This document shows positions 4,301-26,434 of a stretch of DNA of 26,829 bases, in pieces. Each line of letters opens with the position of its first letter. The first letter of the stretch is position 1. The stretch covers positions 1 to 26,829 of IMG/VR virus record IMGVR_UViG_3300034118_000178; one strand, written 5' to 3'. Made by a program: the position numbers and the translations under genes. Below the pieces are notes generated by a model. That model saw only the letters and a list, made by a program, of their open reading frames with translations, had not been told where the DNA came from and made no database searches. This stretch comes from a virus.

Positions 4301-7300
4301 CGAGACCTGCTGACGCAGTAATTGTGAGCTTGCCAGTAAGAGTCCCACCACTTAACGGGAGTGCGTAGCTGCTGTAGTTGCTTGCGTTTAGAACAAGATT
4401 TCCTGTGAAGTAACCATTGGTATAGATACTGCCGCCCACGTACAGGTTATTGCCACTAGTGCTAGCGCCAATCTGCACATGGTTGCCGGGGTTATCGTAT
4501 TGCAGCCATAGGTGATCTGTACCGGCAGACGCCGAAGACTTGCCCCAAATATGACGAACCTGTAGCCGAGCGTCCCCTGTTCCGCCCACGTTAAGTGCAG
4601 GCGTTGCGTTATTCCACGCTAGTGTCGGCGTGATGGTTACTTGCCCGGATGCAGTAATAGATGTTCCGGTAAAGTTAAGCGCCGCGCCTGAATAAATCGC
4701 AAGACCGCCGTTGCCGTTGTCTTGTATGTACTGCCCATTTGCGACGCCGACCTTGTACGGCTGCTGTAGGTTGAGATGACCTGTCAAAGTCCCGCCGCTC
4801 AACGGGACGGCGTAGGAGCTGTAGTTGGCAGACGAAAGGATTTGCGTCCACGAAGTCCACCCACCGAGTCCTTGGCTGTAGTTACGCATCGCAAGCGCTG
4901 GCGTCGCCGCATCGTAGTTGCCGGATATCTGATATGCGCCGTATCTTTCATACCCGGACATCGTCAGCGTCGTTGCCCAGCTGCCAAACAGCCCGTGACC
5001 GCTGTGCATTGAGACTGTCGTTTGTCCAAAGTCGGGAGACAGCGTATACGCGGAGGTGGCGTCGCTGATCCAGGTGCTATCGTTGTAGTTGTATCGTGAG
5101 TACAACCCGCCGACGCTAATATTCTTGTAGTTACCACTCAAGGACGGGCTATACGAGGTGTAGTTTCCGGCGTGGAGGACTTGATTCCCGCCTGACGTGA
5201 CATTGCTCGCGTTGAATGTGCCAGCGGTATTTATTGACGCGAGGTCGCCGATACCGTTCGCGTGGAAAATCAAGCCACCGCCGGAGTCGTTGGCAAGCCA
5301 CCAGCCCGTGCCTGACGCTGCTGTGTTTCGCAGCCACAAGATGTAGCGCTGCGTGGAGTTGAGCGTAAGCGGATAGCCTGATCCAGAGCTGACCGTGCCA
5401 CCGCTCAACGGTAGATAGCTCGACAGCGCGGAGCTGGTGATGTAGCCGCTCGGGTTCGTGCTGTTATATGGCGTGTAACCAAGAGCGGTCGTTACCTGTG
5501 CGCCAGTGATACCAGTCAGGTATCCGCTGTCGTTCGTAAACGTGCTGACATTTGTCGGCTGCGTATACGAGAACACGCCAGTCGATGAGTTATACGAAAG
5601 TGATCCAGTCGCGCTTACGGCTGAACGCGCACGGGCGTTCGTGAAGTACAGGTTAGTGCTGCCTTCTGTAATGCCATCGCTGTTTGGCGTGGTGTAGCTG
5701 AAGGTGCCGGTCGTATTGTTGTACGACAAAGAGCCAGAGGCTGAGATCGAAGTCCTTACGCGAGAGGTCGTGTGGTAAAGATTCGTGCTGCCTTCCGGAA
5801 CCGCATCAGTGCTTCCGGGTGATGCGCTAATTTCAACGTATGCTGAACCAGACCAGCGATAAACCTTCGCGCTGTCTATGGCGATGTAGATCTTTCCAGA
5901 GTCTCCAGTCGCTGGGAAAGCCGCGAGGTTCGCGTACTCAAGGACGTCGTCAACGTAAGACGGCAAGTGCGATGACGCAATCTTTCCGGAGCTGTCTAGT
6001 CCGGCGTAGCCATTAGCAACGCCCTTATTTGCGGCGTTCTCTGGCGTAAATCCGAGTGCGGTCGTTACATCGCCGGACGCAATATTCGTGCCAACGGTAA
6101 CGCGGCCTTTCCCATCAACAGTTACTTTCGAGTACGTTCCAGCGGTGACGCCGCTATTCGCAAGCGTCAGCGCGACAGGTGAGCCGGTCGTGCCGGTTCC
6201 GGTAACGTCTCCGGTGAAGTCAAGGGAGCCAGACGGAATGGCGACCCAAGACGGATTAGTGCCATCAGTGCTGAGATACTTGCCGCTGTTGCTGGTTTGC
6301 GAAGGCAGGAAGCTATTCTTAACAGCAGCACTCGGGCTGCGAACCTCAGATACGTGCAGGTACTGCGGGTGATCGTCGTCAGACAAACCAGACAAGTTGC
6401 CGTGGTCAGTAGCAGGGTTGGCTGCCGAGCCAACAGCAGAAATAGAACGCAGATCAACAATGCTGACAAGTTGGGCGTTTACGCTATTTGCGTAGCCGTC
6501 TGAAGCTTTATAAATCAGTTTGTACAGCGGCCTAAACTCAACTGATGGGAACCCTGTGAGCGTTAAATCAGCAAAGGAAAACGCTTCAGCCTCGCCCAAA
6601 TTATCGGTAGCAGATTGACCGATGATTGCAATAACGGGGTACGTTAAATTGTTTGTGGCCAGAATCCATGTCGTAGCGTGTTGGTTATTGCCAACGTCTG
6701 CTGTACTCCAAACACCACCAGAGAATGAGTTGTACTGAGGTCTAGATGTACCCTGCCTGAACGGGAAATCTGTGGGGGCGTCCATAACCCACGAAGTGCC
6801 TTGCAGGTGCAGGACTGGAATCTTCGCGGGGAACAACAAGTTCTGTTGGTATGTACCAGCGGTAGGCGTAGCAGTCGACACGATGTCGATCTTCATGTCC
6901 TCGTCAAAGAACGTACCAGACTCAATTGCAATCTGAGTAGCAGCATCGGTAGCTGAGTTGTTCAGCGTATAGCCACTAGCCAAGAAACCATTCGCGATAG
7001 CAGCGCCGCGAGTACGGTGAAGGTACTCATGGGTCTGCCAATCAAGCGTAATGCCGTGGCGCTCATCGCCGAAATAGATGGCTTGTTGAGTAGTCGCGTT
7101 CCAATACACGTACGCGGTAGGAGCATGCTCCGCCCACGTAAAGTAACTCATCTGCGTCGAGAGAACGCCCGAAGCGCTGAAATAGATAAAGTGCAGGCCA
7201 GTGGTGTTAGGGATAGTTACCAGCTGGACGGTCGTGTACGTGTACTTAACACCCTTACAGTAGACGTCGAACGACGCCCCAGTCGGGGTGATCGAGAATG

Positions 7301-7679
7301 TGCGTATGCCGCTGTCAAACGTGATAGTCGTCTGGGACTTGTCCGGAAAGCCGATAGGCTCGCCAGACGGGTTTGCCCCAGCGACGTCGTTCAGTAGAGC
7401 AGCCGTAAGGCGCAGCTCTACCTTGGTACCGGCAGCAAAGGAAGCCGGGCTAGTGCCATCCTGACCGCGAGTGACCGTGAGCACGTTGCCAGAAACGGCA
7501 GTGACACGGACGATCTCGCGAGTAGGACTGGCGGTGTCAGTATCCAACGTGACGTAGGTGTGGTCCCCCGCCGTCAGGATCGGAAACTTAGAACCGTCTA
7601 CTACCGTTATGGATGTATCCGACGTGCCGATAGAAGAGGCAAGTTCGGTAGTTGCGTTGTTACTAAATTTTACTGACAT
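1380..7679 (-). CDS. Giant tail fibre with self-cleaving S74 chaperone domain
   Basis: A 2099-residue fibre. Residues 1-105 form an N-terminal attachment-like domain (FSNNATTELASSIGTSDTSI, VTRGQDGTSPASFAAGTKVE). The shaft is rich in Gly, Ser, Thr, Tyr and Asn and made of recurring modules: EGSTNLY units near residues 628 and 671, PLSGGT units near 757, 960, 1108 and 1190, and LHAGNYTSY units near 834, 1469 and 1619. The C-terminus is a peptidase S74 intramolecular chaperone: AYSDERLKTNW gives nucleophile S2002 and Lys2007 at the SDxRLK spacing known from endosialidase, then a coiled-coil end (LAKELVQLKRELAELKSKLH). Self-cleavage before S2002 would release a 98-residue chaperone after trimer folding. 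GAGGGG is six bases from the ATG. Probably the main receptor-binding protein. Confidence 0.93.
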   Translation of the reverse strand: MSVKFSNNATTELASSIGTSDTSITVVDGSKFPILTAGDHTYVTLDTDTASPTREIVRVTAVSGNVLTVTRGQDGTSPASFAAGTKVELRLTAALLNDVAGANPSGEPIGFPDKSQTTITFDSGIRTFSITPTGASFDVYCKGVKYTYTTVQLVTIPNTTGLHFIYFSASGVLSTQMSYFTWAEHAPTAYVYWNATTQQAIYFGDERHGITLDWQTHEYLHRTRGAAIANGFLASGYTLNNSATDAATQIAIESGTFFDEDMKIDIVSTATPTAGTYQQNLLFPAKIPVLHLQGTSWVMDAPTDFPFRQGTSRPQYNSFSGGVWSTADVGNNQHATTWILATNNLTYPVIAIIGQSATDNLGEAEAFSFADLTLTGFPSVEFRPLYKLIYKASDGYANSVNAQLVSIVDLRSISAVGSAANPATDHGNLSGLSDDDHPQYLHVSEVRSPSAAVKNSFLPSQTSNSGKYLSTDGTNPSWVAIPSGSLDFTGDVTGTGTTGSPVALTLANSGVTAGTYSKVTVDGKGRVTVGTNIASGDVTTALGFTPENAANKGVANGYAGLDSSGKIASSHLPSYVDDVLEYANLAAFPATGDSGKIYIAIDSAKVYRWSGSAYVEISASPGSTDAVPEGSTNLYHTTSRVRTSISASGSLSYNNTTGTFSYTTPNSDGITEGSTNLYFTNARARSAVSATGSLSYNSSTGVFSYTQPTNVSTFTNDSGYLTGITGAQVTTALGYTPYNSTNPSGYITSSALSSYLPLSGGTVSSGSGYPLTLNSTQRYILWLRNTAASGTGWWLANDSGGGLIFHANGIGDLASINTAGTFNASNVTSGGNQVLHAGNYTSYSPSLSGNYKNISVGGLYSRYNYNDSTWISDATSAYTLSPDFGQTTVSMHSGHGLFGSWATTLTMSGYERYGAYQISGNYDAATPALAMRNYSQGLGGWTSWTQILSSANYSSYAVPLSGGTLTGHLNLQQPYKVGVANGQYIQDNGNGGLAIYSGAALNFTGTSITASGQVTITPTLAWNNATPALNVGGTGDARLQVRHIWGKSSASAGTDHLWLQYDNPGNHVQIGASTSGNNLYVGGSIYTNGYFTGNLVLNASNYSSYALPLSGGTLTGKLTITASAGLDLFRLTFDADGTDSWYRAGSGNRHRFTTTGGGDFIIGNSSGLATLNGNQLLTAGNYSSYALPLSGGTISGAIRASQITAGGSTNTDANLGVQGTTHLTGTIYYGGTVGGVNSWSSLSTSSSGTHTFSASRFVFDRYGYGSQPLLTLENGTITMSQPTTFNSSITANGRDIRIFENDSFIEFYVGGDANTYYPVRFDVYAWFHFGSWSISRGYGDTAPWDPISTGAHRGGLTLTWEWSGDGAWGGNDKTIRVNQFSEQYTTMVGGMALSVNGIIVWLRGGNAYYRFHGPGGMYKGATPYYSTYTASNGATFSPRSYNSSTVASEVISRMPIRGESEHYDGNNRVLHAGNYTSYSPSLTGSGASGTWGINISGTATYATNVSNGRFDNYSGSYNNVYTWLHFHGGTGYGLYFPGSGSMTHLTPSSSSYGSVLIDGSRNGYWGTMFSTGVGSAGWMTNGNTTGYYTHGYGWKYYHESGAFYISNSTYGGGSAYVALHAGNYTSYAPSLTGSGASGTWGISITGNAATVGGLDVHSGRNDNANKIVRTDGNGYIQAGWINTTSGDSGVANRLARIYSSDDGYLRYSTLTDFKVHMGLSAKNNYSRRIDYTSDSNYWVGSFGHSGYGANETFHGGSGFFDIWSGSNYPSGTSHIQGFNALHYTTNSLGSTGGNAYGIQVAGQYNQGGLLFSRGCSGGSFSSWRRQIDDNNYTDYAVSLTYNSSLNSDSRNSRGVTRLYRRDDNSDYSVQTYWTGSHWYLAGYSGDGFHADCRVAYSDTTGTAARATRANGNLYIDDNYGNGIVGAYASTRYQGVFAMGDSYKLPADGTTTGSLYGMAWSHPNAGGVAGNLDSHGMLVLINGGFGSCMSYSIKASGNVTAYSDERLKTNWRPMPESFVERLAAVKVGIYDRTDGERITQVGVSAQSLQRLLPEAITKAGDEMGTLSVSYGNAAMASAVELAKELVQLKRELAELKSKLH
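2743..3272. repeat. Two near-identical fibre modules
   Basis: About 83 bases at 2743-2825 recur at about 3190-3272, both encoding a LHAGNYTSY-x-PSLTGSGASGTWGI unit; a shorter, more diverged copy of the NYTSY part lies at 5130-5180. They are in-frame repeats of the shaft and possible sites of recombination. Confidence 0.7.
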
Positions 7680-11221: not shown

Positions 11222-14200
11222 TTACAGCACGTTATAAACGGGCAGCAGCCGGTCCTTCAGCGTCCGGTCTACGCGCCAGCCATTTTGGAAGGCAGTATCA
11301 ATAGTCTCAGCCGTGGGGCCTAGCAGCGTGAACAACGGACTATCGCCGAAGTTTGTTGCCTGCGAAGCTCCTGTAATCAGGCCAAACGGGCCGCTAAAGT
11401 TTGACTTCTCAAACGCAGTACCAAGGTACTCCGGCCAGTCCATACGGTCTGTCTTGAAGTACTTCTGATCGGCTTCAACGAACGGGAACAACGCTGCGAG
11501 GCCAAACTTAGCGTACTCGCGAAGCTCCATACCCATCATCGCAAGAGGCATTGTGGCTACCGCAGTCAAAGCCATCAAGCCGACAGCCGAACCAACGCGG
11601 CCCCACGGGGTGCCGATGTTCTGCTCACGCAAGCGAGTCTCAGCTTCGCCGAACATACCGCCGAGGATGACTTTACCGTAGGAATAAAAATACCCCTTCA
11701 GCTGCCAGATCAAAGCGTAGTGCGGATCGGACGCCCAAACAGGGCGCTCTGCCGCATTAGGACGGAGCGTGGAGGATTCAACGAAACGCTGCAGGCCTTG
11801 GGCGACCTTCTTACCTTCCGGCGTGGTCAGCTTGCGGCCCCCAGCAATCCAGTCCAGCACTTCCTGGCGTGTCAGGCCAAGTTCGCTGAGGTAACGATCT
11901 GCTCGCGGGTTATTGAACTCGTTGCGTGCGTGCTTGGTGATGAACTGTACGCCCATGCCAGCCGCAAACTCACGGGTAAACCGGGTGAACCAGTTAAGCC
12001 CAGTAATGTTGAACCACCAGTCAGACGCCTTACGCGCCATAGGGTCCATGTAATCGGCGTCAGCTTCAGTGATCCAAGAGTTAGCTACGGCTTCTGGCGT
12101 AACCACGCCAATGTCACGGGCCAGTTGAATGGCCTCGTCGCGATTTTTAATCGTCGCAATGACTTCCTTCATGCCGGTCGTCAGCGCACCAAACTCTTTT
12201 GAGGCAATGACTGGGCCAGCCAAGTCCGTTACAGACGAGATAGCAGCAAACGGAAGAATAGTGACGAACTGAAGGAACTGCCCCCAGCTGTTCAGCTTGC
12301 GCCAGAACGGGCTGAGCGGGGCGCGGTAGCCCATGTAAGTGTTGATAACGCCCATGGCCGCTTCGCGGTCCTCTGGGTTAAGTCCATCGAGCAACGGCCT
12401 GAGTAGATCGTTACCCTGATCGTCCTTAGTGGCGCGGTCAAACTCAACGCGCTTAACGACGCTTCGGATATACCGCGAGAAGGCTTCTTTCGGCGGTACG
12501 AGAAACGCGCGAAGGTCGTTACGGGGCACGTTGGCGGTGAGTTCAAGAGCCTCGTTAACGCTAGCGTTCGGATCGAGCGGATTGCCTTCGACGTTGTCGC
12601 CATTAACAATGGCCTGCTGCAAGTCGACGAGTTTCTCCACTCGGTTGCGAATTGTCTGCGGGTTGGCGCTGGGATCAGAGCGAACGATCAGATCAACAAA
12701 CGCCTGTGGGTCGTTTGCGATAGCAATAAGATCGAGAACGCGGGGGAAGTAGTTCTGCTGGAAGCCGATCTTAGTTTTAGACGGCGAGACATACTCGGCG
12801 TAGAACTCTTCCAAGAACTGACGGATAGCCAGCGCCTTACCGGTAAGCTGAGAAGTCGGCGTATCGGACTCAGCTTCAGCAAACGCTGCGTCGAGAGCCG
12901 GATCATCCATCGCGCCGATCTCTTTCTCGATACGGTTCTTGTACTCGTCGAACGTGCGTGCGGCCTGCGGTACAAACCCAAGTCGGCCCTTGCCGGTCGG
13001 GTCTTGTGCGCGAACGTAGAACATATCCGCAAGCTCATCTCCACCGTACATACGAAGTATGCCGTCTGCGGTCATAACGAACTTGAGGATCGGCTGGACG
13101 TACTTGTTGCGCTTGAGCGACGAAATCTTCGACTGCCAGTGTGCGGCAAGCGCCGGGCCACCGCCTTGGATCGTCATCTCATCGAGTTCGTAGACGAACG
13201 CTTTTTCGGTAAAGTTAAGTCCGTTCTCGTTGACCTGATTACGGCGGGACTCAATCACGGAGTCCATAAACGTTTCGAAGTCTTCGTTTAGTCGTTGCGC
13301 GAATCGCTTGCGGAAACTCTCGCTGGTAGCGCGCCACAGATTACGGAGACGATTTACGAAGTCTCGGAAGAACCGATCGCCGAGCTTTTGCGGCTGCTTA
13401 TTTTTGTACCGCTGACTCGCCCACAGGGCTACCTGGTCAGAGAACCACTCTTCGAAACCCCGATCAAAACCATACCGCTCGCTAAGCCCCTTAAAAGTCG
13501 GGGACGCTTTATAGGCCTTAAAAAGACGCTCTCTTAACGCCTTGTTTTGGAGGGCCTTGTCACGCTCTTCCTTGTACAGGCTGTGGCCCATCTCGTGCGC
13601 GACTACAAGTGCATCCTGTAGGGGATTGTTGGTCTCGCGGTAGATAATCACCTTACCGTAAGGGCCAGACACGTGCCTGCCGAAATTACTTCGGTTTTCA
13701 CGCATGCTATTCAGGCTGATCTGCACAGACTCAAGCGCGCCTTGGAACTCGGCTGCTAGCTGTTCCGGGGTCATGCCGTCGAGCTGGGCAAACGTGTAGA
13801 TGCGTGGCGGACTCTTAAAGTTAAGGGCGGCCAGCAAGTCCTGGATGACACCCTGCACCATGCTGTTTACAGCGCCAGACACCACCATTTGCTCTCGCGG
13901 TGAGAGCGGAGCTTCTTCTGTGGGGCGTAAAGTGCTAGGGGCAGGAACTTGACGAAGGTCAATGGCCGAACGAGCCGTGTCGATATTCATGCGTGTAGCA
14001 AGCTCACCGTCACGAATATCTGACTTCGAGATTCTTATTCTGTCATTTTCAACCGCACCCTGAGTGTCGGTTTTATCCTGCTGTTGCTGCCACGATCGGA
14101 CGTCGTAAAAAACCGCAGTAATTGTGTCTACCAGGTCTTCGTCGATACCGAGACTTTTAATGATCTTGCCGCGTTTCTGGTTAAGCTCCAACCGGTAAAA

Positions 14201-16930
14201 CACGTCAGAAACAGTTTGAAAGTCCAATCCAAGCTGTTCCGAAAGATACTCAATGTCAGGCTCGCCCCGCTCATTAGACGCTCCGGGGGCGTCAAGCAAC
14301 TCAAATACCTGTTCCTGCAAGGCATCTCGTATGGCTGTTCGTGCTGGCGGTACTGACTGTGATTGGCTAATAAGATCGGCCAAAGACACGGGGCGTCCAC
14401 GATCCAGCCAAGCAGTAACCCCCGTTACAGAGGCAGGTATCTCCTTAGTGATGGATTGCCCATCGACCTGCACGTCGTATCCGTTGAGAGCAAGATCAGC
14501 CAGTAACGCGAAAAAGCCATTTCTAGCAGCAACTCTTGGGTTGGATGTGATCTGTCCTTGGCGATCTGTAGTACCAAGCATGCTCTCACCGCGACCAAAT
14601 AGCAGGCCGCGACCAGAATTTACAAGATCCCACAGAGCAACTTTTGCCGTTTTACCGCTAGGAGTAACGATTGTTACGCGATTAGCGTCTCTACGAAGAG
14701 TTGAATTACCTGGAGCCGCCCCAGCAGTACGTTCTTTGCCGCCAAACAAAAGGTTGCCGGATACCCTGGAAGCACGTCGAATTGATTCGACAAGGTACTC
14801 CTGTAGGTTAAGCATTAGAGTCTGGGTAGTTTCTACACCAGTCTCTTTATCTTTAACTGCTTTCTCGAACCGAAACTTTTCGTCCTGTCCGAAATCTTCT
14901 TCTACAAGACGGAACTTGCCATCGGGAGCATCTTCGATAATTACGGCTGAATACGGGTTAGCCTTCTGGCGCTTAACAGCAGCAATCAACATCTGCTCGC
15001 CCATTGAAGCAAATCGAAGACTGTTCCAGTCAGTGTCTCCAAAGACCTTTTCGTACTCAGCTCTAGCTGATTCCGTATTATCGAAAACCGCTGCTAGATT
15101 TTTCTTCTTATCGTACGTGCCAAGTACTTTACGCTCTGGCTCGATTATCTGGGAGCCTTCGCCAAAAATGTCTACATCCGTCTGGTCTTCACTGCCGTCC
15201 TGATCGTCTTCGACATTCATCTCGCGGATTTCAACGCGCTGCTCGGCCTCAAAACGGCGCTTGCGATCTTCGAGCGCCTTCTCAACCGTGGTCTGCTCGA
15301 CGCGGCCGCCCTGTGGCATAAGCTTGCCAGCCGCCTGGAAAGCCGCAGGCAAGTTGTCTTGTGTTGTGGCCTCCTCGGATACAACCCGACCTTCCCTGTC
15401 GAATACCTGAACGACTAGGTCACCCGGATTAGCAGAGTTCTTTACTGCGCTGTAGCCGAGAGCAACCTGAAGAGCTTTGTCGGACGCGCCAGCAGCTACA
15501 ACTTCCTCGACCAGATTGCGGTCAGTAGATACGATCGTGCCCCGGCCAGGAATGAACGAAGCGAAAGCCTCGTTTCCGTCTATAACGATTTCAGAAATCT
15601 TATTAGCGCGAGCTTTGACCTTAGTAGCTTCACCGGCAACCCACACAGCGTTCTTACCGCTAGTTGGGTCAAGCATCGCCCGAAGCTGTGCGTCGATATC
15701 GCGCTCCGGCTCGGGGGTTGTACCGCCAGAGAAGATGTCACCGAACTGTTCTCGGTTGACCTGGTCATTGACCCGTTGCTCACGGGCGGTGTCCAGCATG
15801 CGACGGGCGCGATCGAAGATGTTAGCGGCTTTATCTACAACGTTACCGGCTGCGTCGCGAGCACCTTGCGGAGCACGCGCCATAGCGTCGCCTGTAGCGC
15901 CAAGGACACCGCCAGCTGCGCCGGGGGCAGCACCGCCAAAGAAGCCAGCAAAAGCTGATTCGGCCAGCCGTAACTTGGCGTCTTCTGCAGTAAACAACGG
16001 GTCGAGGTCAGCACGGTTAGCGACCGCAATCCCTTCCTGCGCCAGTTCAGTCGTCGCTTCGATAGCGCCGCCCTGCAAGGCACCAGTTCCGACGCGCTTG
16101 GCGAAGTTAGCAAAGATCCCGCCTTCTACGGCGGCACGCTTTGTAGCCTGCTCACCGATCAATCTGAGCAAGGCGTACTCGCTTCCCACGCCGATAGCGG
16201 CTTGGGGGGCAGCGACAGCAGCAGCACGAAATGCTGTATCTCTATCAAGAGGCTGGCCGGACTCCAAGGCTTCCGACAGGTTGCTGCCTGACAAAGGCGC
16301 GAACTCAGCAGCGAAACCTCCGCCAATTGCGCCACGCGTAGCCGCTTGCCGAAGCGAGCCATAGGCCAGCTCAGCGATCTGCTGCTCGGCGGGGTCAGCA
16401 ACACCCTGAACAGTACGATCGACCGAGTCCTTAATAATACGCTTGGCCGCCTGGCGATTTACCTGGTTCAGTACGCCGCGACCAACAACAGCGGTCAGTG
16501 CGCCAGTACCGGCGCTAGCAATAGACAGAGCGGCGGAGGGCAGGACTTGGCCAAACCCACGCGTTGCTTGGCTGACAAACCCGCTAAAGGTCGGCTGGTC
16601 AAGGAACTGCTCAAACGTCTCTAGCCCCTCAAGCGGGGCAGCGGCAAACTCTTCTAAAAGTCGAGCTTCTCGAATATTAGTTTCGGCTGCGCGAGTGTCA
16701 CCTACTAGAGTGTTGCCTAGCGCTTTGAAGTATTCGAGATCCGCTGACAGTCCTTGGATGCCGGATTCCACAGCCCCGCTAAACTCTTCGCTGAGATTAG
16801 CCGCCCTACCACGAAACTGCGGAGTGGGGGCGTTACCCAAAAACTGTTGAAACTGCACGTCCTCTTCAGGACTAGTTTCGTTACCAGCGCGAAGGAACTC
16901 GGCAAACGGATCGTACTGCTCAGTGTCCAT
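11222..16930 (-). CDS. Giant internal virion/polyvalent protein with zinc-metallopeptidase motif
   Basis: A 1902-residue protein, the last of the ejection-protein block, in the position of T7 gp16. Near the N-terminus is a Gly/Ala-rich hydrophobic segment (about residues 126-154). Residues 1108-1120 read ALVVAHEMGHSLY, a clear HExxH zincin motif (H1112, E1113, H1116), and RGFEEWFSDQVALW follows with E1160/E1161 as candidate third zinc ligand. The C-terminal third has a hydrophobic stretch near 1550-1575, a conserved-looking GLNWFTRFTREF segment, RPVWASDPHYALIWQL, and a likely membrane span at about 1779-1802. Phage polyvalent proteins often carry such zincins. I see no lytic transglycosylase motif. 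Likely role: injected with DNA, with envelope or host-protein cleavage. There is no good ribosome site, so coupling to the previous gene (5-base gap) is probable. Confidence 0.8.
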   Translation of the reverse strand: MDTEQYDPFAEFLRAGNETSPEEDVQFQQFLGNAPTPQFRGRAANLSEEFSGAVESGIQGLSADLEYFKALGNTLVGDTRAAETNIREARLLEEFAAAPLEGLETFEQFLDQPTFSGFVSQATRGFGQVLPSAALSIASAGTGALTAVVGRGVLNQVNRQAAKRIIKDSVDRTVQGVADPAEQQIAELAYGSLRQAATRGAIGGGFAAEFAPLSGSNLSEALESGQPLDRDTAFRAAAVAAPQAAIGVGSEYALLRLIGEQATKRAAVEGGIFANFAKRVGTGALQGGAIEATTELAQEGIAVANRADLDPLFTAEDAKLRLAESAFAGFFGGAAPGAAGGVLGATGDAMARAPQGARDAAGNVVDKAANIFDRARRMLDTAREQRVNDQVNREQFGDIFSGGTTPEPERDIDAQLRAMLDPTSGKNAVWVAGEATKVKARANKISEIVIDGNEAFASFIPGRGTIVSTDRNLVEEVVAAGASDKALQVALGYSAVKNSANPGDLVVQVFDREGRVVSEEATTQDNLPAAFQAAGKLMPQGGRVEQTTVEKALEDRKRRFEAEQRVEIREMNVEDDQDGSEDQTDVDIFGEGSQIIEPERKVLGTYDKKKNLAAVFDNTESARAEYEKVFGDTDWNSLRFASMGEQMLIAAVKRQKANPYSAVIIEDAPDGKFRLVEEDFGQDEKFRFEKAVKDKETGVETTQTLMLNLQEYLVESIRRASRVSGNLLFGGKERTAGAAPGNSTLRRDANRVTIVTPSGKTAKVALWDLVNSGRGLLFGRGESMLGTTDRQGQITSNPRVAARNGFFALLADLALNGYDVQVDGQSITKEIPASVTGVTAWLDRGRPVSLADLISQSQSVPPARTAIRDALQEQVFELLDAPGASNERGEPDIEYLSEQLGLDFQTVSDVFYRLELNQKRGKIIKSLGIDEDLVDTITAVFYDVRSWQQQQDKTDTQGAVENDRIRISKSDIRDGELATRMNIDTARSAIDLRQVPAPSTLRPTEEAPLSPREQMVVSGAVNSMVQGVIQDLLAALNFKSPPRIYTFAQLDGMTPEQLAAEFQGALESVQISLNSMRENRSNFGRHVSGPYGKVIIYRETNNPLQDALVVAHEMGHSLYKEERDKALQNKALRERLFKAYKASPTFKGLSERYGFDRGFEEWFSDQVALWASQRYKNKQPQKLGDRFFRDFVNRLRNLWRATSESFRKRFAQRLNEDFETFMDSVIESRRNQVNENGLNFTEKAFVYELDEMTIQGGGPALAAHWQSKISSLKRNKYVQPILKFVMTADGILRMYGGDELADMFYVRAQDPTGKGRLGFVPQAARTFDEYKNRIEKEIGAMDDPALDAAFAEAESDTPTSQLTGKALAIRQFLEEFYAEYVSPSKTKIGFQQNYFPRVLDLIAIANDPQAFVDLIVRSDPSANPQTIRNRVEKLVDLQQAIVNGDNVEGNPLDPNASVNEALELTANVPRNDLRAFLVPPKEAFSRYIRSVVKRVEFDRATKDDQGNDLLRPLLDGLNPEDREAAMGVINTYMGYRAPLSPFWRKLNSWGQFLQFVTILPFAAISSVTDLAGPVIASKEFGALTTGMKEVIATIKNRDEAIQLARDIGVVTPEAVANSWITEADADYMDPMARKASDWWFNITGLNWFTRFTREFAAGMGVQFITKHARNEFNNPRADRYLSELGLTRQEVLDWIAGGRKLTTPEGKKVAQGLQRFVESSTLRPNAAERPVWASDPHYALIWQLKGYFYSYGKVILGGMFGEAETRLREQNIGTPWGRVGSAVGLMALTAVATMPLAMMGMELREYAKFGLAALFPFVEADQKYFKTDRMDWPEYLGTAFEKSNFSGPFGLITGASQATNFGDSPLFTLLGPTAETIDTAFQNGWRVDRTLKDRLLPVYNVL

Positions 16931-20700: not shown

Positions 20701-21155
20701 TATAGCTCCCTCGTATACACCACGGTATCAATCGACCAGCCGTTCTCTGTTAAGTGCGGCATCAAGCCTAGGAAGGGCGACCTAGTTTCAAGGTAGCTGT
20801 ACCCCGCCTCGCGCGCCACTCTCTCGAAGAACGATTGATACTTAGATACCAAGCTATTCCCCTTTTCCTTAGCCCATGCGAGCCAAAGAAACATCGTCTT
20901 CTTACCTGTGAAGGTGTCAGTCTCGGTTGTCGAAACGACGAAGCCTTCACTAGTCACCCAAAGCACGGCTTGCTGGTTAACGCACGCCGCGTACACATCT
21001 TCTGCCCGGTACGTAAGAGCCTTAGAGTTACGTAAGATCTCTTCAATACCCGGCCTTATCCAATCCCACTCTCTACGAACGTCGGCTACGAACGGTTCAA
21101 CCGCCGCGACCGTAACGATTTCGCCGTTGTGAGAATGGAGTGTAGATCCCGCCAT
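20700..21155 (-). CDS. GNAT-like virion-associated protein
   Basis: A 151-residue alpha/beta protein: an N-terminal helix with REWDWIRPGIEEILRN, a central sheet (AACVNQQAVLWVTSEGFVVS, KKTMFLWLAWA) and a helix followed by YSYLETRSPFLGLMPHLTENGW and a final strand (SIDTVVYTREL). This order resembles the GNAT acetyltransferase fold, including the late NGW-like beta bulge. The acetyl-CoA loop would be around EKGNSL, which lacks the second Gly of the Q/RxxGxG/A motif, so activity may be lost. Small GNAT-like proteins occupy the same place in T7-type phages (gp13-like, internal virion protein A). AGGAAGG lies upstream of the ATG. The gene overlaps the previous one by 59 bases and its stop overlaps the next start (TAGTG). 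Confidence 0.65.
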   Translation of the reverse strand: MAGSTLHSHNGEIVTVAAVEPFVADVRREWDWIRPGIEEILRNSKALTYRAEDVYAACVNQQAVLWVTSEGFVVSTTETDTFTGKKTMFLWLAWAKEKGNSLVSKYQSFFERVAREAGYSYLETRSPFLGLMPHLTENGWSIDTVVYTREL

Positions 21156-21783
21156 ACGCTACCTTCCTAGCAATACCAACGTCGGCATTCCTAGCGCGAC
21201 GATCAGCCTGTGTAATGCCTTCATTAAACAGCGACGAGTACACCTGTGCGCCGCCGAAATCAGTCCAGTCTTTGCTCGGTAAACGCAGCAAACGAAACAA
21301 AGCGCCGTTGACGATTGTATCGCGATACTCAGCCATCAGCTCATCGTCAGCAGCAGTAGAAGTCTGCGTAGGCTTCAACTGCGCTCGCACGATGGTGCTG
21401 GAGGCTTTAGTAACGTTAGGTACAGGCACCATCCAGAACAGAGACTGGCTGATCTTTACGTAGTATTCCGGCGTGCCGCGATTGTCGGCGTCTCGCCAGT
21501 TTTGCTTACGCTGCTCTAACAGACTGGTGCTAATCGGCTCGATGTCCTTGCCGTCGTGCACAACCCACATGATCTTATGCACAACCGTGCCTGACGGCGG
21601 TTCGAGGTCATACTCGTACGCACCGGCAACAGTTGTGATCGGATCAAGCTCAGCCTGAAGCACCGCCGCCTTTTCGCACAGCTCGATGACAGCTGCTCGA
21701 ATGTTGTTTTCGATCAGCGTGTCCGGACAGCCGGGCACCATCGGAATGATCTCAGGTAACAGCGACTCATAAAGAGTTGCCAT
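21097..21783 (-). CDS. Second connector/tail-adaptor-like protein
   Basis: A 228-residue protein: MATLYESLLPEIIPMVPGCP, then AAVIELCEKAAVLQAELDPI, beta-rich centre (YEYDLEPPSGTVVHKIMWVV, PEYYVKISQSLFWMVPVPN) and a helical end with EYRDTIVNGALFRLLRLPSK, FNEGITQADRRAR and a basic Gly/Arg tail (RRNRYGRGG). The helix-beta-helix arrangement and conserved-looking N-terminal IxxxIxxAVIELCEKA helix resemble connector proteins of short-tailed phages (T7 gp11 and P22 gp4 type roles). It follows another connector candidate with a 6-base gap and its 3' end overlaps the next gene by 59 bases. The ribosome site is poor (GGGG eight to nine bases away), so coupling to the previous gene is likely. Function is inferred from place and shape. 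Confidence 0.7.
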   Translation of the reverse strand: MATLYESLLPEIIPMVPGCPDTLIENNIRAAVIELCEKAAVLQAELDPITTVAGAYEYDLEPPSGTVVHKIMWVVHDGKDIEPISTSLLEQRKQNWRDADNRGTPEYYVKISQSLFWMVPVPNVTKASSTIVRAQLKPTQTSTAADDELMAEYRDTIVNGALFRLLRLPSKDWTDFGGAQVYSSLFNEGITQADRRARNADVGIARKVAYGGIYTPFSQRRNRYGRGG

Positions 21784-21789
21784 CGTTTA

Positions 21790-22500
21790 TTACCCCGCTA
21801 CTGCCGGAGCTGCCATCGCAAGACGACTGGAGTCATAGTTTGGCGAGGTCAAAGCATCAAGCTGCGCCTTACCAGTAATTGACGACATGAACAGCTGGAA
21901 GTGCGAAGACGCTCGCTGCTGGTTACCCGCATAATCCGCGTCCTTCATGTAGGCCATGTAGAGGACATAGTTCATCACCGCGTTGGCGAAGATGTCGGGA
22001 ATATCCAAGTTACCGTTCTGCGCTACCGTCACAGGGTTCGCTGAATAGATAATCTCGACAAACGAGCTGGCGGCCGTTGCTACGCCCGGATACACGTAGA
22101 AGTTACGCGGGTTCTGCTCATCATAGATGTAGTGCTTTACAACAGCTACATGTGCAGCGTCGCCCGTAACGAGCGGGTCGTGCCAGTCGGGAGTCTGGGC
22201 ATCAAGAACTTCGCGAGACACGACGCGAACAGCGCGCTTACCAACACCGCTGGAAGCGGCCGACATGTTACGGACCACCCGAAGTAGGCGGTTACCGTCA
22301 CTAGGGATGTCCTGTTTCGTACCGACAACAAGAGTGACAGTTACGTTCTTAGCAGAAGCGTCTGGCTTAAGAAGGGCGATCTCTCGCTGGGCGTCATTAA
22401 CCCAGAGTACGAGCTCGTCCACTACAGGCCAACGGACACCGGTCGTGTCCTGGAGGGTCTTTTGAACCCGGTCAATAACGCTTTGTACGGTGACAGTCAT
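21790..22500 (-). CDS. Head-tail adaptor-like phage protein
   Basis: A 236-residue protein starting MTVTVQSVIDRVQKTLQDTT, with the motif LVLWVNDAQREIALLKPDAS and later a conserved-looking NFYVYPGV, VEIIYSANPV, IPDIFANAVMNYVLYMAYMKD stretch and ADYAGNQQRASSHFQLF. This N-terminal pattern (helix, ND-AQREI, beta region, then long helix at the end) is typical of the phage adaptor family I know as DUF6682. The helical bundle plus beta insertion suggests a connector ring subunit joining portal to tail. It follows the capsid block, which fits. GAGG six bases before the ATG overlaps the previous stop. The family call is from memory; the exact ring position (first adaptor or tail-tube subunit) is inference. 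Confidence 0.75.
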   Translation of the reverse strand: MTVTVQSVIDRVQKTLQDTTGVRWPVVDELVLWVNDAQREIALLKPDASAKNVTVTLVVGTKQDIPSDGNRLLRVVRNMSAASSGVGKRAVRVVSREVLDAQTPDWHDPLVTGDAAHVAVVKHYIYDEQNPRNFYVYPGVATAASSFVEIIYSANPVTVAQNGNLDIPDIFANAVMNYVLYMAYMKDADYAGNQQRASSHFQLFMSSITGKAQLDALTSPNYDSSRLAMAAPAVAG

Positions 22501-22977: not shown

Positions 22978-24120
22978 TTAGATGGCCGTGTCGAGGCAGA
23001 CCACGCCGAAGTCCTGAACGGACCCGTTGTAATCGCTGTTGTACTTCGGCTTGCGGAGACCGAAGATCTTACCGATCGAGATACCAGACTGATTCTGGTA
23101 GTCGAAGGTGTCTTCCACGATTTCCGGCAGACCGATGTCAGCCATCGCGAGCGCCTGCGCACCGCAGAAGAGCGCACGACCGCCAACAACGTTGGCGTTA
23201 GCACCCCACTTGTAACCAGCGGCACCGGCGTTAGCCGAGGTACCAGTGGTCGCAGTCGCGGTGTTAAACACGTGACGGAACTCGTGCACCATCACGCCGT
23301 CGACCATCAACGAGCTCGAACCAGCGAAGAGCTGGTTGCTCGGACCACGGATGCCAGCATTACGCACGTTGGCAAGGAAGTCCGAATCGAGCTTGAGGGC
23401 GGCCATCTGCTGCGGCGTCACGAAGAGGTGGAACACCTCGTCGTTGCCAGCGCCACGGACACCACGGATGTAGTTGTCCTTCGCGTAGGCCTTGAGGGCC
23501 ACGATATGGCGGTACTTGAGAATGTCAGCAGACGTGATCGTAGTCGTATCACCGGCAACGATGTCGTTGCCCGAAACGCGACGGTGACGAGCAGCGGTCG
23601 GGGCCGACACGTCCGAGGCGAACTCGAGGTTCGACAGGTTCTGGCCAGAGGCCAAAACGGTGCGGAGACCACCGCTCGTCTTGTGCGTGTAAGCAACACC
23701 GGCGAGCGTCAAGAACGCGAGCTGGTCCATACGATCGGCCATCGCGTAGGCGAGGGCGTCACGGCTGGTCTCACGGAAGTTGACGACCGACTTCTGGTCA
23801 GCAAGGCGACCGGCGATGCGGTTCGCAAAGCGCAGCTGATCGAGCTCGATGGTGATGTCGTAAGCGCGGAGCGCCTCTTCATTACCCTCAAGCGCGCTGT
23901 CGCCCGTCACGCCGTCACCGGTCATATCGGCGAGCAACGTGATGACAGCCTTCGTGCCCTTGTCTGACTTCGTCAGCTCGGTCACGCGCTGGATCATTGC
24001 ATTGGAACCCGAACCAGCGAACTGGTTCACAAACGACATATTGCGAGCGACGCGCCAGAAGTCACGGCTCCACGCCGTGAGTTGATCACTAGTCAGCGCC
24101 GCAAAGTTAGTAAGAGCCAT
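22978..24120 (-). CDS. Major capsid protein, N4-gp56 family
   Basis: A 380-residue protein of the length and pattern of the N4-gp56 major capsid family (Pfam Phage_capsid_3, as I recall). Supporting segments are an N-terminal FRVARN-like region (DFWRVARNMSFVNQFAG), a long E-loop-like region with GDSALEGNEEAL, the typical DQLRFANRIAGRLADQKS and FRETSRDALAYAMADRMDQL helices, VFHLFVTPQQ, VMVHEFRHVFN, and an ending with IFGLRKPKYNSDY and DFGVVCLDTAI. These follow the HK97-fold capsid layout of the family. It forms the icosahedral shell. A strong ribosome site (AAGGAGA, 7-8 bases) precedes the ATG, with a structured leader upstream and a stable hairpin directly after the stop, both consistent with separate high-level expression. 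Confidence in the family is high. Confidence 0.93.
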   Translation of the reverse strand: MALTNFAALTSDQLTAWSRDFWRVARNMSFVNQFAGSGSNAMIQRVTELTKSDKGTKAVITLLADMTGDGVTGDSALEGNEEALRAYDITIELDQLRFANRIAGRLADQKSVVNFRETSRDALAYAMADRMDQLAFLTLAGVAYTHKTSGGLRTVLASGQNLSNLEFASDVSAPTAARHRRVSGNDIVAGDTTTITSADILKYRHIVALKAYAKDNYIRGVRGAGNDEVFHLFVTPQQMAALKLDSDFLANVRNAGIRGPSNQLFAGSSSLMVDGVMVHEFRHVFNTATATTGTSANAGAAGYKWGANANVVGGRALFCGAQALAMADIGLPEIVEDTFDYQNQSGISIGKIFGLRKPKYNSDYNGSVQDFGVVCLDTAI

Positions 24121-24153
24121 TTGGCTTCTCCTTTAATTGCGTTACAAAATCTA

Positions 24154-24171
24154 GTAATGCACATGCATTAC
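24154..24171. repeat. Perfect 8-bp inverted repeat near the capsid start
   Basis: GTAATGCA (24154-24161) is followed after CA by its exact reverse complement TGCATTAC (24164-24171). It lies about 35 bases upstream of the capsid ATG and can be read as an 18-base operator-like palindrome or, in RNA, as a 7-bp hairpin with a four-base loop just before the ribosome site. Confidence 0.6.
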
Positions 24172-24233
24172 CAGCCTACAGCCGACTTGTGGTGCGGCTA
24201 AACCGTTTCCCCGTATCGTGGGGTCACGACTTA

Positions 24234-24304
24234 GCGCGTATTAACGAGGCGCGACCTCGGCACATTTAACGCCTATGCGAGGCGAAATCAGCACGTTTTT
24301 AACG
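24234..24304. repeat. Three degenerate TTAACG-containing direct repeats
   Basis: Plus-strand units GCGCGTATTAACG (24234-24246), GCACATTTAACG (24260-24271) and GCACGTTTTTAACG (24291-24304) share a GC-R-C-R-T start and an AACG end, and are spaced 26 and 31 bases apart. They may be repeated protein-binding sites or promoter relics. The match is by eye and partly driven by A/T runs. Confidence 0.35.
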
Positions 24305-24349
24305 TGTGCGACACGGCTGGATATCGTTCCAACGGACGAGTTCAGTTGT

Positions 24350-24378
24350 AGATTAACAACAGAGTAGAAAGTTCGCAA
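24350..24378 (-). promoter_or_regulatory. Weak sigma70-like promoter candidate
   Basis: On the minus strand TTGCGA (24378-24373) and TAATCT (24355-24350) are separated by exactly 17 bases. The -35 matches consensus at 4 of 6 positions and the -10 at 3 of 6. The -10 sits in the loop of the GTTGT/ACAAC inverted repeat. It would read toward the capsid gene. The match is poor enough that chance is a real possibility, and the phage may use its own polymerase. Confidence 0.2.
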
Positions 24379-24382
24379 CTAT

Positions 24383-24511
24383 TTAATAGGAATATTTCTT
24401 CTTGGCCGCCTTCTTAGCAGGCTTTTTAGCGCCGTGGGTCTTACCCGGCATCATGGTGCCATCCGGCATGCGGTGCATCGGGCCTTTTTCGCCCTTTTTC
24501 TTCATCTTCAT
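24383..24511 (-). CDS. Tiny basic protein (42 aa), MPDGTMMPGKTH type
   Basis: A 42-codon frame starting MKMKKKGEKGPMHRMPDGTM and ending in a poly-basic AKKAAKKKYSY tail. It is preceded by AGGAG eight bases before the ATG. Met- and Gly-rich patches (HRMPDGTMMPGKTHGAKKP) sit between two Lys clusters. Similar tiny proteins with MPDGTMMPG-type motifs occur in aquatic phages, from memory. It is the last gene before the non-coding leader of the capsid gene, and so the last of the five-gene basic cluster. Despite its size, the good ribosome site, its place in a row of similar genes and the strongly non-random composition support a real gene. Function unknown. Confidence 0.75.
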   Translation of the reverse strand: MKMKKKGEKGPMHRMPDGTMMPGKTHGAKKPAKKAAKKKYSY

Positions 24512-24528
24512 ACGCTCGTCTCCTGTGG

Positions 24529-24780
24529 TTAACGGTATCGCGCCGTCTTCTTGGCGATACGCTTGGGTTGCTTCGAAAACTGCTCCCCCTTAGCAAGCGA
24601 ACGACGCTTGTTACGGGTGGTAGCAGCATACTCTTGCGGGGACAGCGCCTGCCGAGCTTTCTTCGGCAGGTACCGTTCGCCAGTCGCTTTAGAGCCTTGG
24701 GTACTGTTCTTACCAGAACGGGTGCCCCAGTCCTCGTTAGTCCACTTTTTAAGGGACTTCTGTGGCTTAGCTAACCCCAT
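24529..24780 (-). CDS. Small basic phage protein (83 aa), YLPKKA/EYAATTR type
   Basis: An 83-residue, very basic protein: MGLAKPQKSLKKWTNEDW at the start, a central GERYLPKKARQALSPQEYAA motif, then TTRNKRRSLAKGEQ and a basic end (AKKTARYR). This KW...SG...RYLP.KA...S..EYAATTR pattern is familiar to me from hypothetical proteins of phages and some large viruses (possibly the family catalogued as DUF5872; recalled, not verified). A clear ribosome site, AAGGA, precedes the ATG by 7 bases and lies inside the end of the previous gene. Lys and Arg dominate, acidic residues are few, and there is no membrane segment or Cys pair. Nucleic-acid binding is plausible but not demonstrated. Confidence 0.85.
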   Translation of the reverse strand: MGLAKPQKSLKKWTNEDWGTRSGKNSTQGSKATGERYLPKKARQALSPQEYAATTRNKRRSLAKGEQFSKQPKRIAKKTARYR

Positions 24781-24783
24781 GGA

Positions 24784-24963
24784 CTAGTCCTTCTTCATCT
24801 TACGAAGGGTCATGGCCAAACGGGCACGCTGGCCGGTCTTGCCTGGCTTCTTGGCTGCTGCTTTCAGCTCTTTAGCCGGGATCTTCTCGCCTTTCTTGAC
24901 GCCCATGCTCTTACGCAGGGCACCAGGCTTCTTGATCGCATCTTTGATCCAGTCCTTAGCCAT
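24784..24963 (-). CDS. Small basic phage protein (59 aa), DWIKDAIKKPGAL type
   Basis: A 59-residue protein read directly from the minus strand: it begins MAKDWIKDAIKKPGALRKSM and ends LAMTLRKMKKD. The DWIK-x-AIKKPGALR N-terminus is, from memory, a widespread signature of short hypothetical phage proteins, followed here by a Lys/Ala linker and a C-terminal helix rich in Arg and Met. The ATG overlaps the stop of the previous gene by one base (TAATG), and the TAG at 24784 lies three bases from the next start. It is the third of five tiny basic genes. No function is assigned; tandem placement with other basic proteins next to the capsid gene suggests a shared virion or packaging role. Confidence 0.85.
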   Translation of the reverse strand: MAKDWIKDAIKKPGALRKSMGVKKGEKIPAKELKAAAKKPGKTGQRARLAMTLRKMKKD

Positions 24964-25142
24964 TACTTGTAGCCTCCTCCTGACTTTTTGTACTCGACCG
25001 CAAGCATCTGTGCTTTACGGGCGCTCCATTGGCCTGGTTTACCGCCTTTTCCACCAGCTTTTATGCTGTTAAACAGCTGCTTACGCATAGTCGGCTTGGT
25101 GTAGTTACCGGCGGCATTGACCTTTGACTTGGCCTTAGCCAT
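24963..25142 (-). CDS. Small basic phage protein (59 aa), GQWSARKAQ type
   Basis: A 59-residue Lys-rich protein (MAKAKSKVNAAGNYTKP at the start, YKKSGGGYK at the end) with a central GGKGGKPGQWSARKAQ motif. An upstream in-frame GTG two codons earlier exists, but the ATG at 25142 overlaps the preceding stop as TAATG, exactly as the neighbouring genes do, so I take the ATG. The NYTKP plus GQWSARKAQ plus GGGYK signature is, from memory, a recurrent hypothetical phage protein. No catalytic motif or membrane segment is visible. Gly-rich spacing between basic patches would suit nucleic-acid or capsid-surface binding, but that is a guess. Confidence 0.85.
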   Translation of the reverse strand: MAKAKSKVNAAGNYTKPTMRKQLFNSIKAGGKGGKPGQWSARKAQMLAVEYKKSGGGYK

Positions 25143-25426
25143 TACCACTTAACCTTATCGGCCCAATACGCTGCGGACATCTTGCCCTTAGCAATATTCC
25201 TAGAGTGACGGGCTTTAAAAGACTCGCGGCGGTTGCGATAGGCTTCGGACTCCCCCTTTTTACGGGGGGAGCCGCTCACGCCCTGCTGGCCGAAGCGAAT
25301 AGTCTTTACTTGCTCGCCCGACTTAGCCACAACCACGTGGCTCTTGGTCGGATGGCTCGGTGTGCGCTTGGGTTTGTTGTAGCCAGAGACACCGGCTCGG
25401 GCCAAACGTGAGTCACGGGTAGCCAT
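25142..25426 (-). CDS. Small basic phage protein (94 aa), unknown function
   Basis: A very basic 94-residue protein starting MATRDSRLARAGVSGYNKPK and ending SAAYWADKVKW. It has many Lys/Arg, a central VVAKSGEQVKTIRFGQQG stretch, and a C-terminal SFKARHSRNIAKGKMSAAYW segment. From memory, proteins with this ending and the N-terminal GYNKPKRTP pattern recur in aquatic podoviruses as hypothetical proteins; no function is known to me. It is the first of five tiny basic genes between scaffold and capsid. Its ATG overlaps the scaffold stop by one base (TAATG), and its own stop overlaps the next start in the same way, so the products are probably made in a coupled, near-stoichiometric fashion. A role in the head or in DNA binding is inference from charge and position only. 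Confidence 0.85.
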   Translation of the reverse strand: MATRDSRLARAGVSGYNKPKRTPSHPTKSHVVVAKSGEQVKTIRFGQQGVSGSPRKKGESEAYRNRRESFKARHSRNIAKGKMSAAYWADKVKW

Positions 25427-26424
25427 TAGACAACATCGCCTCTCAGTCGCTTAAGGGTGGCTGCCGGTAGGGCGTTAAACTCGTCCTCCGTCAGCTGCAT
25501 AACGTCAAACGCCTTCTCGCCGCGTGCGGCAGAACTCTCACCCGGCATATCAGGCGGCTGAGACTCGGCGGCCTTCATCTTGCGAGCGATATCGGCACGC
25601 TTTTTAGCCACTTCGTCGACCGGAGCGGCCTTCGTAGCGGTAGGAGCCGCCAGAGACGGCGTTTCCTGGGTGCTCATATCGACCAGATCGTACTCACGGA
25701 GGACGAACTTAGCCGCTTTTGACAGCGCAGCGACGGGGTTTTCGCCCTTAACGATAAATGCGTCGCGCAGATCGATCACTTCCTGCGTGTATTTCTCGTT
25801 GAACTCAGGGCTGTTGCGGTCGAAGACCGGGAAATTCGTCTCCAGCTCCGACGCGGCCTGCTGCAAAGCCGACATCTGCTGGCTTTGGGTGACCTTCTGC
25901 TCCATTTTCTGGGTCAGCTCAAACTCCAACTGGGCGCGTTCAGCCCGGCGGATCTCCTGACGCAGCGCCGCAGCCTTTTCATGCTGCCCGTCGAGCACCA
26001 TGTTCTGGTATTCGACCTCCTTGACCGCGAAATCAAAGCTATCTGGAGCTGTCTCGGCAGCGGTTTTTGCTGCCATCAGATCATCGAGCTGCTTCTGCAG
26101 CGCCTTCTGCTTAGCCAACACCTCGTCGAGGCGCGACTTCGGCACCATCGGCTTCTTAGCTTCCGGTTCCGGCGCAATTTTAGGTTCCGGCTGCGGGATT
26201 TCCTGGGCGACCGGTTCGATGACCGGTTCAGCAGCAACCTTCTGCTCCGGAACTACCGGCGCTTCAGGCTCCTCGATGGCCGGTTCGGCGACCGGTTCCG
26301 GGGCTTCGGCCTTTGGCTCTTCGCCCAAGCCAAAGTTCAGGTCGAATTTCGCCTCGGGCGGGGCTTCCACTGGGTCAGAACCCGGCATCCGGTCCTGGCT
26401 AACGTCTTTCGTGTCCTCAGACAT
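25426..26424 (-). CDS. Capsid scaffolding protein
   Basis: A 332-residue acidic protein. Residues about 20-95 are a low-complexity Glu/Pro/Ala/Val tract with many PEP and EP units; about 95-220 are strongly helical and Gln/Glu/Lys-rich, consistent with coiled coil; the C-terminal 90 residues are mixed, ending LKRLRGDVV. Lack of enzymatic motifs, an extended acidic helical body, a short basic C-terminal segment and a place between portal and capsid all fit a scaffold that guides prohead assembly and is later expelled. A TTG lies two codons upstream of the chosen ATG, but AGGAGA sits only 1-2 bases before that TTG and about 7 before the ATG at 26424, so the ATG is preferred. The stop overlaps the next start by one base (TAATG). 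Identification is by composition and context. Confidence 0.75.
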   Translation of the reverse strand: MSEDTKDVSQDRMPGSDPVEAPPEAKFDLNFGLGEEPKAEAPEPVAEPAIEEPEAPVVPEQKVAAEPVIEPVAQEIPQPEPKIAPEPEAKKPMVPKSRLDEVLAKQKALQKQLDDLMAAKTAAETAPDSFDFAVKEVEYQNMVLDGQHEKAAALRQEIRRAERAQLEFELTQKMEQKVTQSQQMSALQQAASELETNFPVFDRNSPEFNEKYTQEVIDLRDAFIVKGENPVAALSKAAKFVLREYDLVDMSTQETPSLAAPTATKAAPVDEVAKKRADIARKMKAAESQPPDMPGESSAARGEKAFDVMQLTEDEFNALPAATLKRLRGDVV

Positions 26425-26434
26425 ATTCAATCTC

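Follow-up and report, generated by a model that had tools for sequence, protein, structure and literature searches.

Between the gene of an acidic scaffold-like protein and that of the major capsid protein, a phage contig from IMG/VR carries five small genes whose products are all strongly basic. We interpret them as a cassette of modular make-up, encoding small basic late proteins of the portal-scaffold expression unit that are predicted to lie in the interior of the procapsid and to associate with the scaffold; the probability we attach to this reading is about 0.45. The core component would be the first product, B94, which in its predicted model is a compact domain. The window (the whole stretch of DNA that was analysed) is 26,829 bases long, and the genes concerned are the following:

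25426..26430, minus strand: acidic scaffold-like protein, 334 residues from TTG at 26430 (or from ATG at 26424); first cistron of the coupled run
25142..25426, minus strand: B94 (gene 1), 94 residues, net charge +17, Tlr6F/DUF5754-like domain protein; TAATG overlap with the scaffold gene
24963..25142, minus strand: B59a (gene 2), 59 residues, net charge +13, N-terminal half of a DUF5872-like protein
24784..24963, minus strand: B59b (gene 3), 59 residues, net charge +15, of the 'WI..AIKKPGALRK' family, between the two DUF5872-like halves
24529..24780, minus strand: B83 (gene 4), 83 residues, net charge +18, C-terminal half of a DUF5872-like protein
24383..24511, minus strand: B42 (gene 5), 42 residues, Lys-rich accessory protein, confined to close relatives
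22978..24120, minus strand: major capsid protein of the N4-gp56 type, 380 residues (PF13252, E 6.5e-46; phrog_334, E 1.7e-81)

A preliminary description of this DNA had placed five consecutive reading frames of 94, 59, 59, 83 and 42 residues between scaffold and capsid, and both this arrangement and its coordinates are confirmed. The same is true of the Lys/Arg richness it noted: across all five the pI is 10.4-11.3, the net charge +12 to +18 and the Lys+Arg content 24-34 %, and every other gene tabulated in the window has 16 % Lys+Arg or less. A consecutive run of the five most basic among 27 genes would arise by random placement with a probability of 23/80730 = 3e-4 (hand calculation). The first three genes are joined, as had been described, by one-base TAATG overlaps at 25142 (B94/B59a) and 24963 (B59a/B59b), and a further one at 25426 joins the scaffold gene to B94. 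B83 starts 3 bases after B59b and B42 17 bases after B83; a Shine-Dalgarno-like stretch lies upstream of each of the five starts.

The scaffold-like protein (pI 4.6, net charge -23) is so called from its position, which is between the preceding open reading frame and the capsid gene, and from its composition, not from a family match, since neither PHROG nor Pfam yielded a convincing one. The portal gene lies outside the window, and no protease was recognised among the window genes tested. Elsewhere in the window, positions 1380-7679 and 11222-16930 encode a 2099-residue protein with a C-terminal Peptidase_S74 chaperone domain and an unannotated 1902-residue protein without a Pfam match; PF24175, the SU10 adaptor family, is matched by the two adjacent proteins at 21790-22500 (E 6e-37) and 21097-21783 (E 1.5e-13), possibly reflecting a duplication.

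The early impression that the five products lack known relatives has to be revised. Four of them match PHROG families without known function (B94, phrog_7595, E 2.6e-41; B59a, phrog_17747, E 2e-35; B59b, phrog_20603, E 2.7e-5; B83, phrog_14910, E 2.9e-33), and more remote domain relationships exist as well; B42 matches no family in PHROG or Pfam. In Pfam, no HU/histone-like or other known DNA-binding domain was matched above threshold by any of the five, and a sequence-profile search of the PDB with the B94, fused DUF5872-like and B59b families returned chance matches only.

The B94 domain provides the main support for our reading. Its profile matches the C-terminus of ICP1 gp125 (residues 187-261, E 6.7e-12; Foldseek probability 1.00), and the gp125 domain, used as query in turn, retrieves a stand-alone CRP-2 homologue (E 1e-11). 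By these matches, the gp125-type C-terminal domain is homologous to B94. ICP1 gp125 also carries a Peptidase_S78_2/XkdF protease domain (PF14550, E 7.5e-10); procapsid-like particles of ICP1 have been made in E. coli from gp122 and gp124 (PMC10945586). The B94 profile further matches residues 535-604 of the CL131 portal gp012 (E 1.5e-11), a protein (ORF012) identified among the virion proteins of that phage by LC-MS/MS (PMC6293099) and the one B94-domain protein with mass-spectrometric evidence in the literature, as well as a 388-residue protein encoded between portal and capsid in Vibrio phage 1.101.O (E 6.5e-10) and proteins of T4-like marine phages. Among the PHROG families reached by B94 relatives is phrog_220, 'minor head protein and DNA pilot' (23/31 members, best E 3e-19). 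It must be noted that gene fusion demonstrates a functional association, not a mechanism.

Stand-alone B94 genes are likewise found with head genes in phages whose capsids are unrelated. In P22-like phages the neighbours of B94 are the gp4-like tail accessory gene on one side and the gp10-like stabilization gene on the other; the ct3Oc712 homologue is 78 % identical, and about 20 further loci among the matches listed have this placement. Some HMO-2011-like contigs have it between portal and capsid and others ahead of TerL, the latter position being used in Zobellviridae types too. Lentibacter phage ICBM2 encodes it stand-alone as gp31, and HMO-2011-type roseophages combine B94 with B59a and B83. 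A recognised neighbour gene is present at 41 of the 78 B94-selected loci listed, and in 39 of these 41 all are on the same strand. B94 is thus head-linked across unrelated capsids. The idea of an assembly-related basic protein, put forward in the preliminary description, is therefore a fair one for B94, a real gene whose close tie to head morphogenesis extends over unrelated phages. A capsid-lining role tied to the N4-gp56 fold was rejected: B94 is found alongside unrelated capsids, and it is missing from the corresponding interval of KPP25 and Acidovorax AP1, the closest isolated phages by capsid protein (53 % and 45 %).

The AF2 model of B94 (pLDDT 87.7, pTM 0.76) consists of a beta-hairpin and helices; a fold search against the PDB gave nothing significant, with no Z of 2 or more. 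Compared with giant-virus proteins by Foldseek, the model matches V9SE36 with probability 1.00 and A0A0N9R3E1 with probability 0.92 (E 0.023 and 0.12). Weak matches to Tlr6F/DUF5754 (PF19058) and DUF6321 (PF19846) are obtained for 13 and 9 of 32 B94 relatives, all below the Pfam cut-offs; scored singly, relatives reach 11.1-16.6 bits against a PF19058 gathering cut-off of 27.4 bits, and the window B94 gives no match. This weak sequence and model similarity suggests that B94 is related to Tlr6F, and because all Pfam scores fall below cut-off we do not file it as a Tlr6F/DUF5754 member. Tlr6F itself is described as a small protein without known function, conserved in almost every polinton-like virus, in several virophages and many giant viruses, and in some phages (PMC4642659, PMC12220804). 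B94-type domains are probably present in giant viruses and virophages, whose capsids are unrelated, and this occurrence away from phage head genes weighs against our reading.

Genes 2 and 4 are, as alignment with their relatives shows, the two halves of one DUF5872-like protein, split here with B59b in between. In many relatives B59a and B83 form a single protein of 131 residues; phrog_17747 and phrog_14910 are both matched by each of the 22 aligned fused proteins, of which 21 also weakly match Pfam DUF5872 (PF19197; best E 1.8e-6), a family whose cut-off is reached by bacterial homologues. In Pfam, neither the window's own genes nor the separate halves match DUF5872. Counting five families, as had been done initially, therefore overstates the number by treating these two as distinct. 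Single-gene homologues with 50-86 % identity occur in genome contigs of bacteria and archaea, including many chromosomes of Alphaproteobacteria. The fused gene is chromosomal and stands alone in many Alphaproteobacteria and in Pseudomonas relatives (loci L397-L476), where no conserved neighbours were found, only genus-specific neighbours and overlapping-frame artefacts. The literature on DUF5872, DUF6321 and DUF5754 yielded no function. The B59b family, for its part, also occurs C-terminally in larger 'KKGG' phage proteins.

Cysteine-containing versions of the basic proteins were noticed in four relatives (L146, positions 2693-4029, L142, L119 and L120): B94 with RH.C...YWSC, the DUF5872-like C-terminal half with CGR...YPSC, and a 52-residue 'ARYKVWPSAYASGAVAKCRKVGAKNWGNK' protein. 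These motifs suggest a metal-binding form, and the cysteine versions of B94 and of the DUF5872-like C-terminal half may vary in concert. A recurrent family of tiny, basic, Cys-rich proteins ('MFKPCKGCPSPAKCKAAGKCMKR...') occupies the scaffold-capsid intervals of six others (L123, L124, L103, L121, L133 and L149).

Could the five products act on nucleic acids in the cell rather than in the particle? They would then be late proteins that coat or condense DNA, assist packaging or serve as RNA chaperones, and their location among head genes would reflect late expression only. We regard this as possible, if rather unlikely. Their strong and uniform basicity would be expected of such proteins, and so would the wide spread over viruses with unrelated capsids, probable giant-virus relatives included (PMC4642659, PMC12220804), and the single DUF5872-like genes on bacterial chromosomes. 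In addition, a DNA methyltransferase family is among the PHROG families of B94 relatives (4 members). This context away from head genes counts against our own proposal, as does the occurrence of B94-type domains near or within cytidylyltransferase proteins of T4-like phages. However, late expression in general would not predict anything as specific as the fusion of B94 to a capsid protease and to a portal, or its position within the head module of several capsid types.

The constancy of the set was assessed in relatives chosen by their capsid protein, without reference to the basic genes. The 80 best matches share 81 % identity or more and so define a close clade, known here from metagenomic contigs alone; each scan was represented by its best 80 loci, which weights the samples towards close relatives. 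Among these 80 best, 60 intervals are complete from scaffold to capsid, not all of them fully independent: B94 is present in 58, B83 in 27, B59a in 19, and B59b and B42 in 14 each. Interval length ranges from 534 to 2072 bp. Since presence counts and interval length differ between relatives, the five genes represent one state of a variable slot, with B94 the only near-constant member in this clade. B59b and B42 are accessory; by profile, they were detected at no fewer than 114 and 34 loci, respectively. Genes 2-5 come and go freely among close relatives, so the head does not require them.

Outside the clade, the families are common in aquatic phages with other capsids, i.e. HMO-2011-type phages, pelagiphages, Zobellviridae types, SIO1 and cyanosiphophages, a recurrence already named in the preliminary description. 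There they lie ahead of the terminase gene, in the portal-capsid gap or close to lysis genes, preferentially in the order B94, B59a, B59b, B83, with B59a-B83-B94 also frequent. The suggestion that the five always travel together beside N4-gp56 capsids is contradicted by the interval counts and by these gene orders: only B94 is near-constant, none of the five families is found between scaffold and capsid in KPP25 or AP1, and the families mostly accompany other capsids. Nor are they scattered at random through phage genomes, the outcome that had been named as contrary to a shared role. The neighbourhood pattern is neither random scatter nor linkage to one capsid.

Such variability invites the view that accessory 'moron' genes of unrelated function (host takeover, anti-defence or stress) insert preferentially in the scaffold-capsid gap, making it a hot spot, B94 being a long-standing resident and genes 2-5 interchangeable cargo. 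The spread of interval lengths fits this view, as do the many other small open reading frames in the interval, some of them acidic or of membrane type, the empty interval in KPP25 and AP1, and the movement of the families between phages with different capsids. Yet 90 of the 121 other small unlabelled reading frames in these intervals have a pI above 9, and the order of the DUF5872-like, B59b and B94 genes tends to be kept from one phage to another, which would not be so with random cargo. We consider the hot-spot explanation unlikely for the set as a whole; a mixture, with B94 structural and the rest cargo, is quite possible.

That some or all of the five are not expressed genes, a suspicion raised by their small size and by the many spurious reading frames of such length in mechanical lists, is ruled out for practical purposes by the substitution pattern (dN/dS 0.02-0.20 against relatives where calculable, similar to scaffold and capsid), by the ribosome-binding sites and TAATG coupling, and by homologues in many unrelated phages. 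This pattern holds for all five, the 42-mer included (0.06-0.20 where calculable), and since it shows purifying selection on each of them, the five are real genes under strong purifying selection.

The capsid gene itself is separated from B42 by about 260 non-coding bases, in which two elements were recognised:

24350..24378, minus strand: promoter-like element of the capsid gene, sigma-70-like; -35 TTGCGA (24373-24378), 17 nt, -10 TAATCT (24350-24355)
24180..24333, minus strand: structured leader RNA of the capsid gene, about 150 nt, six helices, two with ACGATA loops

The window element falls below the threshold of a generic promoter scan. A TTGNNN-N17-TANNNT element nevertheless lies 13-23 nt (mostly 13-17) upstream of the leader RNA in 28 of 31 relatives, with 0.9 expected after shuffling. 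For the leader, pairing is kept in 97.7 % of cells and the covariation score is 0.331, compared with 0.142 for shuffled and at most 0.077 for slid controls; sequences left out of the model were recovered at E 1.5e-16 or better. The evidence is thus one of covariation, single-sequence thermodynamic folding of the leader being not unusual (z -1.06). Its core motif lies directly 5' of the capsid gene in all 77 testable contigs, and it is absent from KPP25 and AP1. No Rfam family matches at gathering score; the best, freshwater-2, scores 20.4 against 49.9 bits and covers the last hairpin only. The leader RNA is an undescribed family absent from Rfam, possibly an autoregulatory or processing element of the capsid gene. 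An additional hairpin (24151-24174) precedes the capsid Shine-Dalgarno sequence. A link between leader RNA and B94 was considered and discarded: L161 and L163 carry the RNA but lack B94, and B94 is found in many phages that lack the RNA.

The capsid gene thus probably has its own promoter and leader RNA and is probably transcribed separately, and the five basic genes therefore probably belong to the upstream scaffold unit. This makes their coordinated production with the capsid, as originally envisaged, doubtful, the translational coupling being to the scaffold. A literature search found no virion or procapsid proteomics and no transcriptomics for the clade, and no virion proteomics was found in the main text of the Cobavirus paper; the published pelagiphage transcriptomes (PMC12753301) concern other phage types. 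The leader RNA ahead of the capsid gene suggests that capsid synthesis is under dedicated control in this uncultured group of phages.

In the cassette reading that we prefer, B94 would be a domain that tailed phages use for basic docking within the procapsid, as a separate protein or joined to an interior one such as the ICP1 protease or the CL131 portal. B94 and its companions would be made beside the acidic scaffold through translational coupling, and the negative charge of the scaffold would pull them into the procapsid core. The charges are consistent with this, scaffold orthologues having a median net charge of -48 and the basic products a median sum of +66. Once the scaffold leaves, B94 and its companions may remain and contact the portal, the inner shell or the incoming DNA. 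The DUF5872-like halves, B59b and B42 would be optional additions of the same physical type. We infer the location in the procapsid, the binding partners, the contact with DNA and a role common to all five. The presence of B94 in 58 of the 60 intervals picked by capsid, together with its domain in a predicted capsid protease and in a virion-detected portal, supports the proposal.

More tentatively, the B94/Tlr6F-like domain, which occurs in tailed phages and apparently also in giant viruses, virophages and polinton-like viruses, may be a basic docking module of the particle interior in general, alone or fused to portal or protease; in this aquatic phage clade it would be accompanied by optional basic partners co-made with the scaffold, and the capsid would be controlled separately via the leader RNA. 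Among viruses of algae and protists, Tlr6F-type small proteins have been described as ubiquitous yet uncharacterised (PMC4642659, PMC12220804). The tie of the B94 domain to the predicted capsid protease of ICP1, a tractable phage, and to a virion-detected portal offers a concrete and testable function, that of a procapsid-interior module. Annotation gene by gene can also mislead, as the split DUF5872-like protein shows: several small 'hypothetical' genes in a row can amount to a single divided protein together with optional companions.

Among known systems, the T4-type internal head and basic core proteins are small basic proteins that co-assemble with an acidic scaffold core; the likeness to the present cassette is one of idea only. 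With Tlr6F/DUF5754 and DUF6321, the B94 relatives share by eye a pattern of FG, ARH and W; several relatives keep the RH.C...YWSC cysteines, whereas the window B94 is without them. DUF5872 (PF19197) is matched by fused relatives of B59a and B83, while the window has two genes with B59b between them, neither half being recognised by Pfam. In Aphanizomenon phage vB_AphaS-CL131 the B94 domain lies within a 1393-residue portal (gp012, phrog_220), whereas the window B94 is a separate protein of 94 residues. In ICP1, a predicted capsid protease carries the domain, unlike the window B94, in which Pfam finds no PF14550 domain. The likeness to gp125 lies in its C-terminal ~75 residues, homologous to B94, and in its setting within the late capsid operon gp122-gp126, next to the scaffold gp124 (PMC7567579, PMC9040626).
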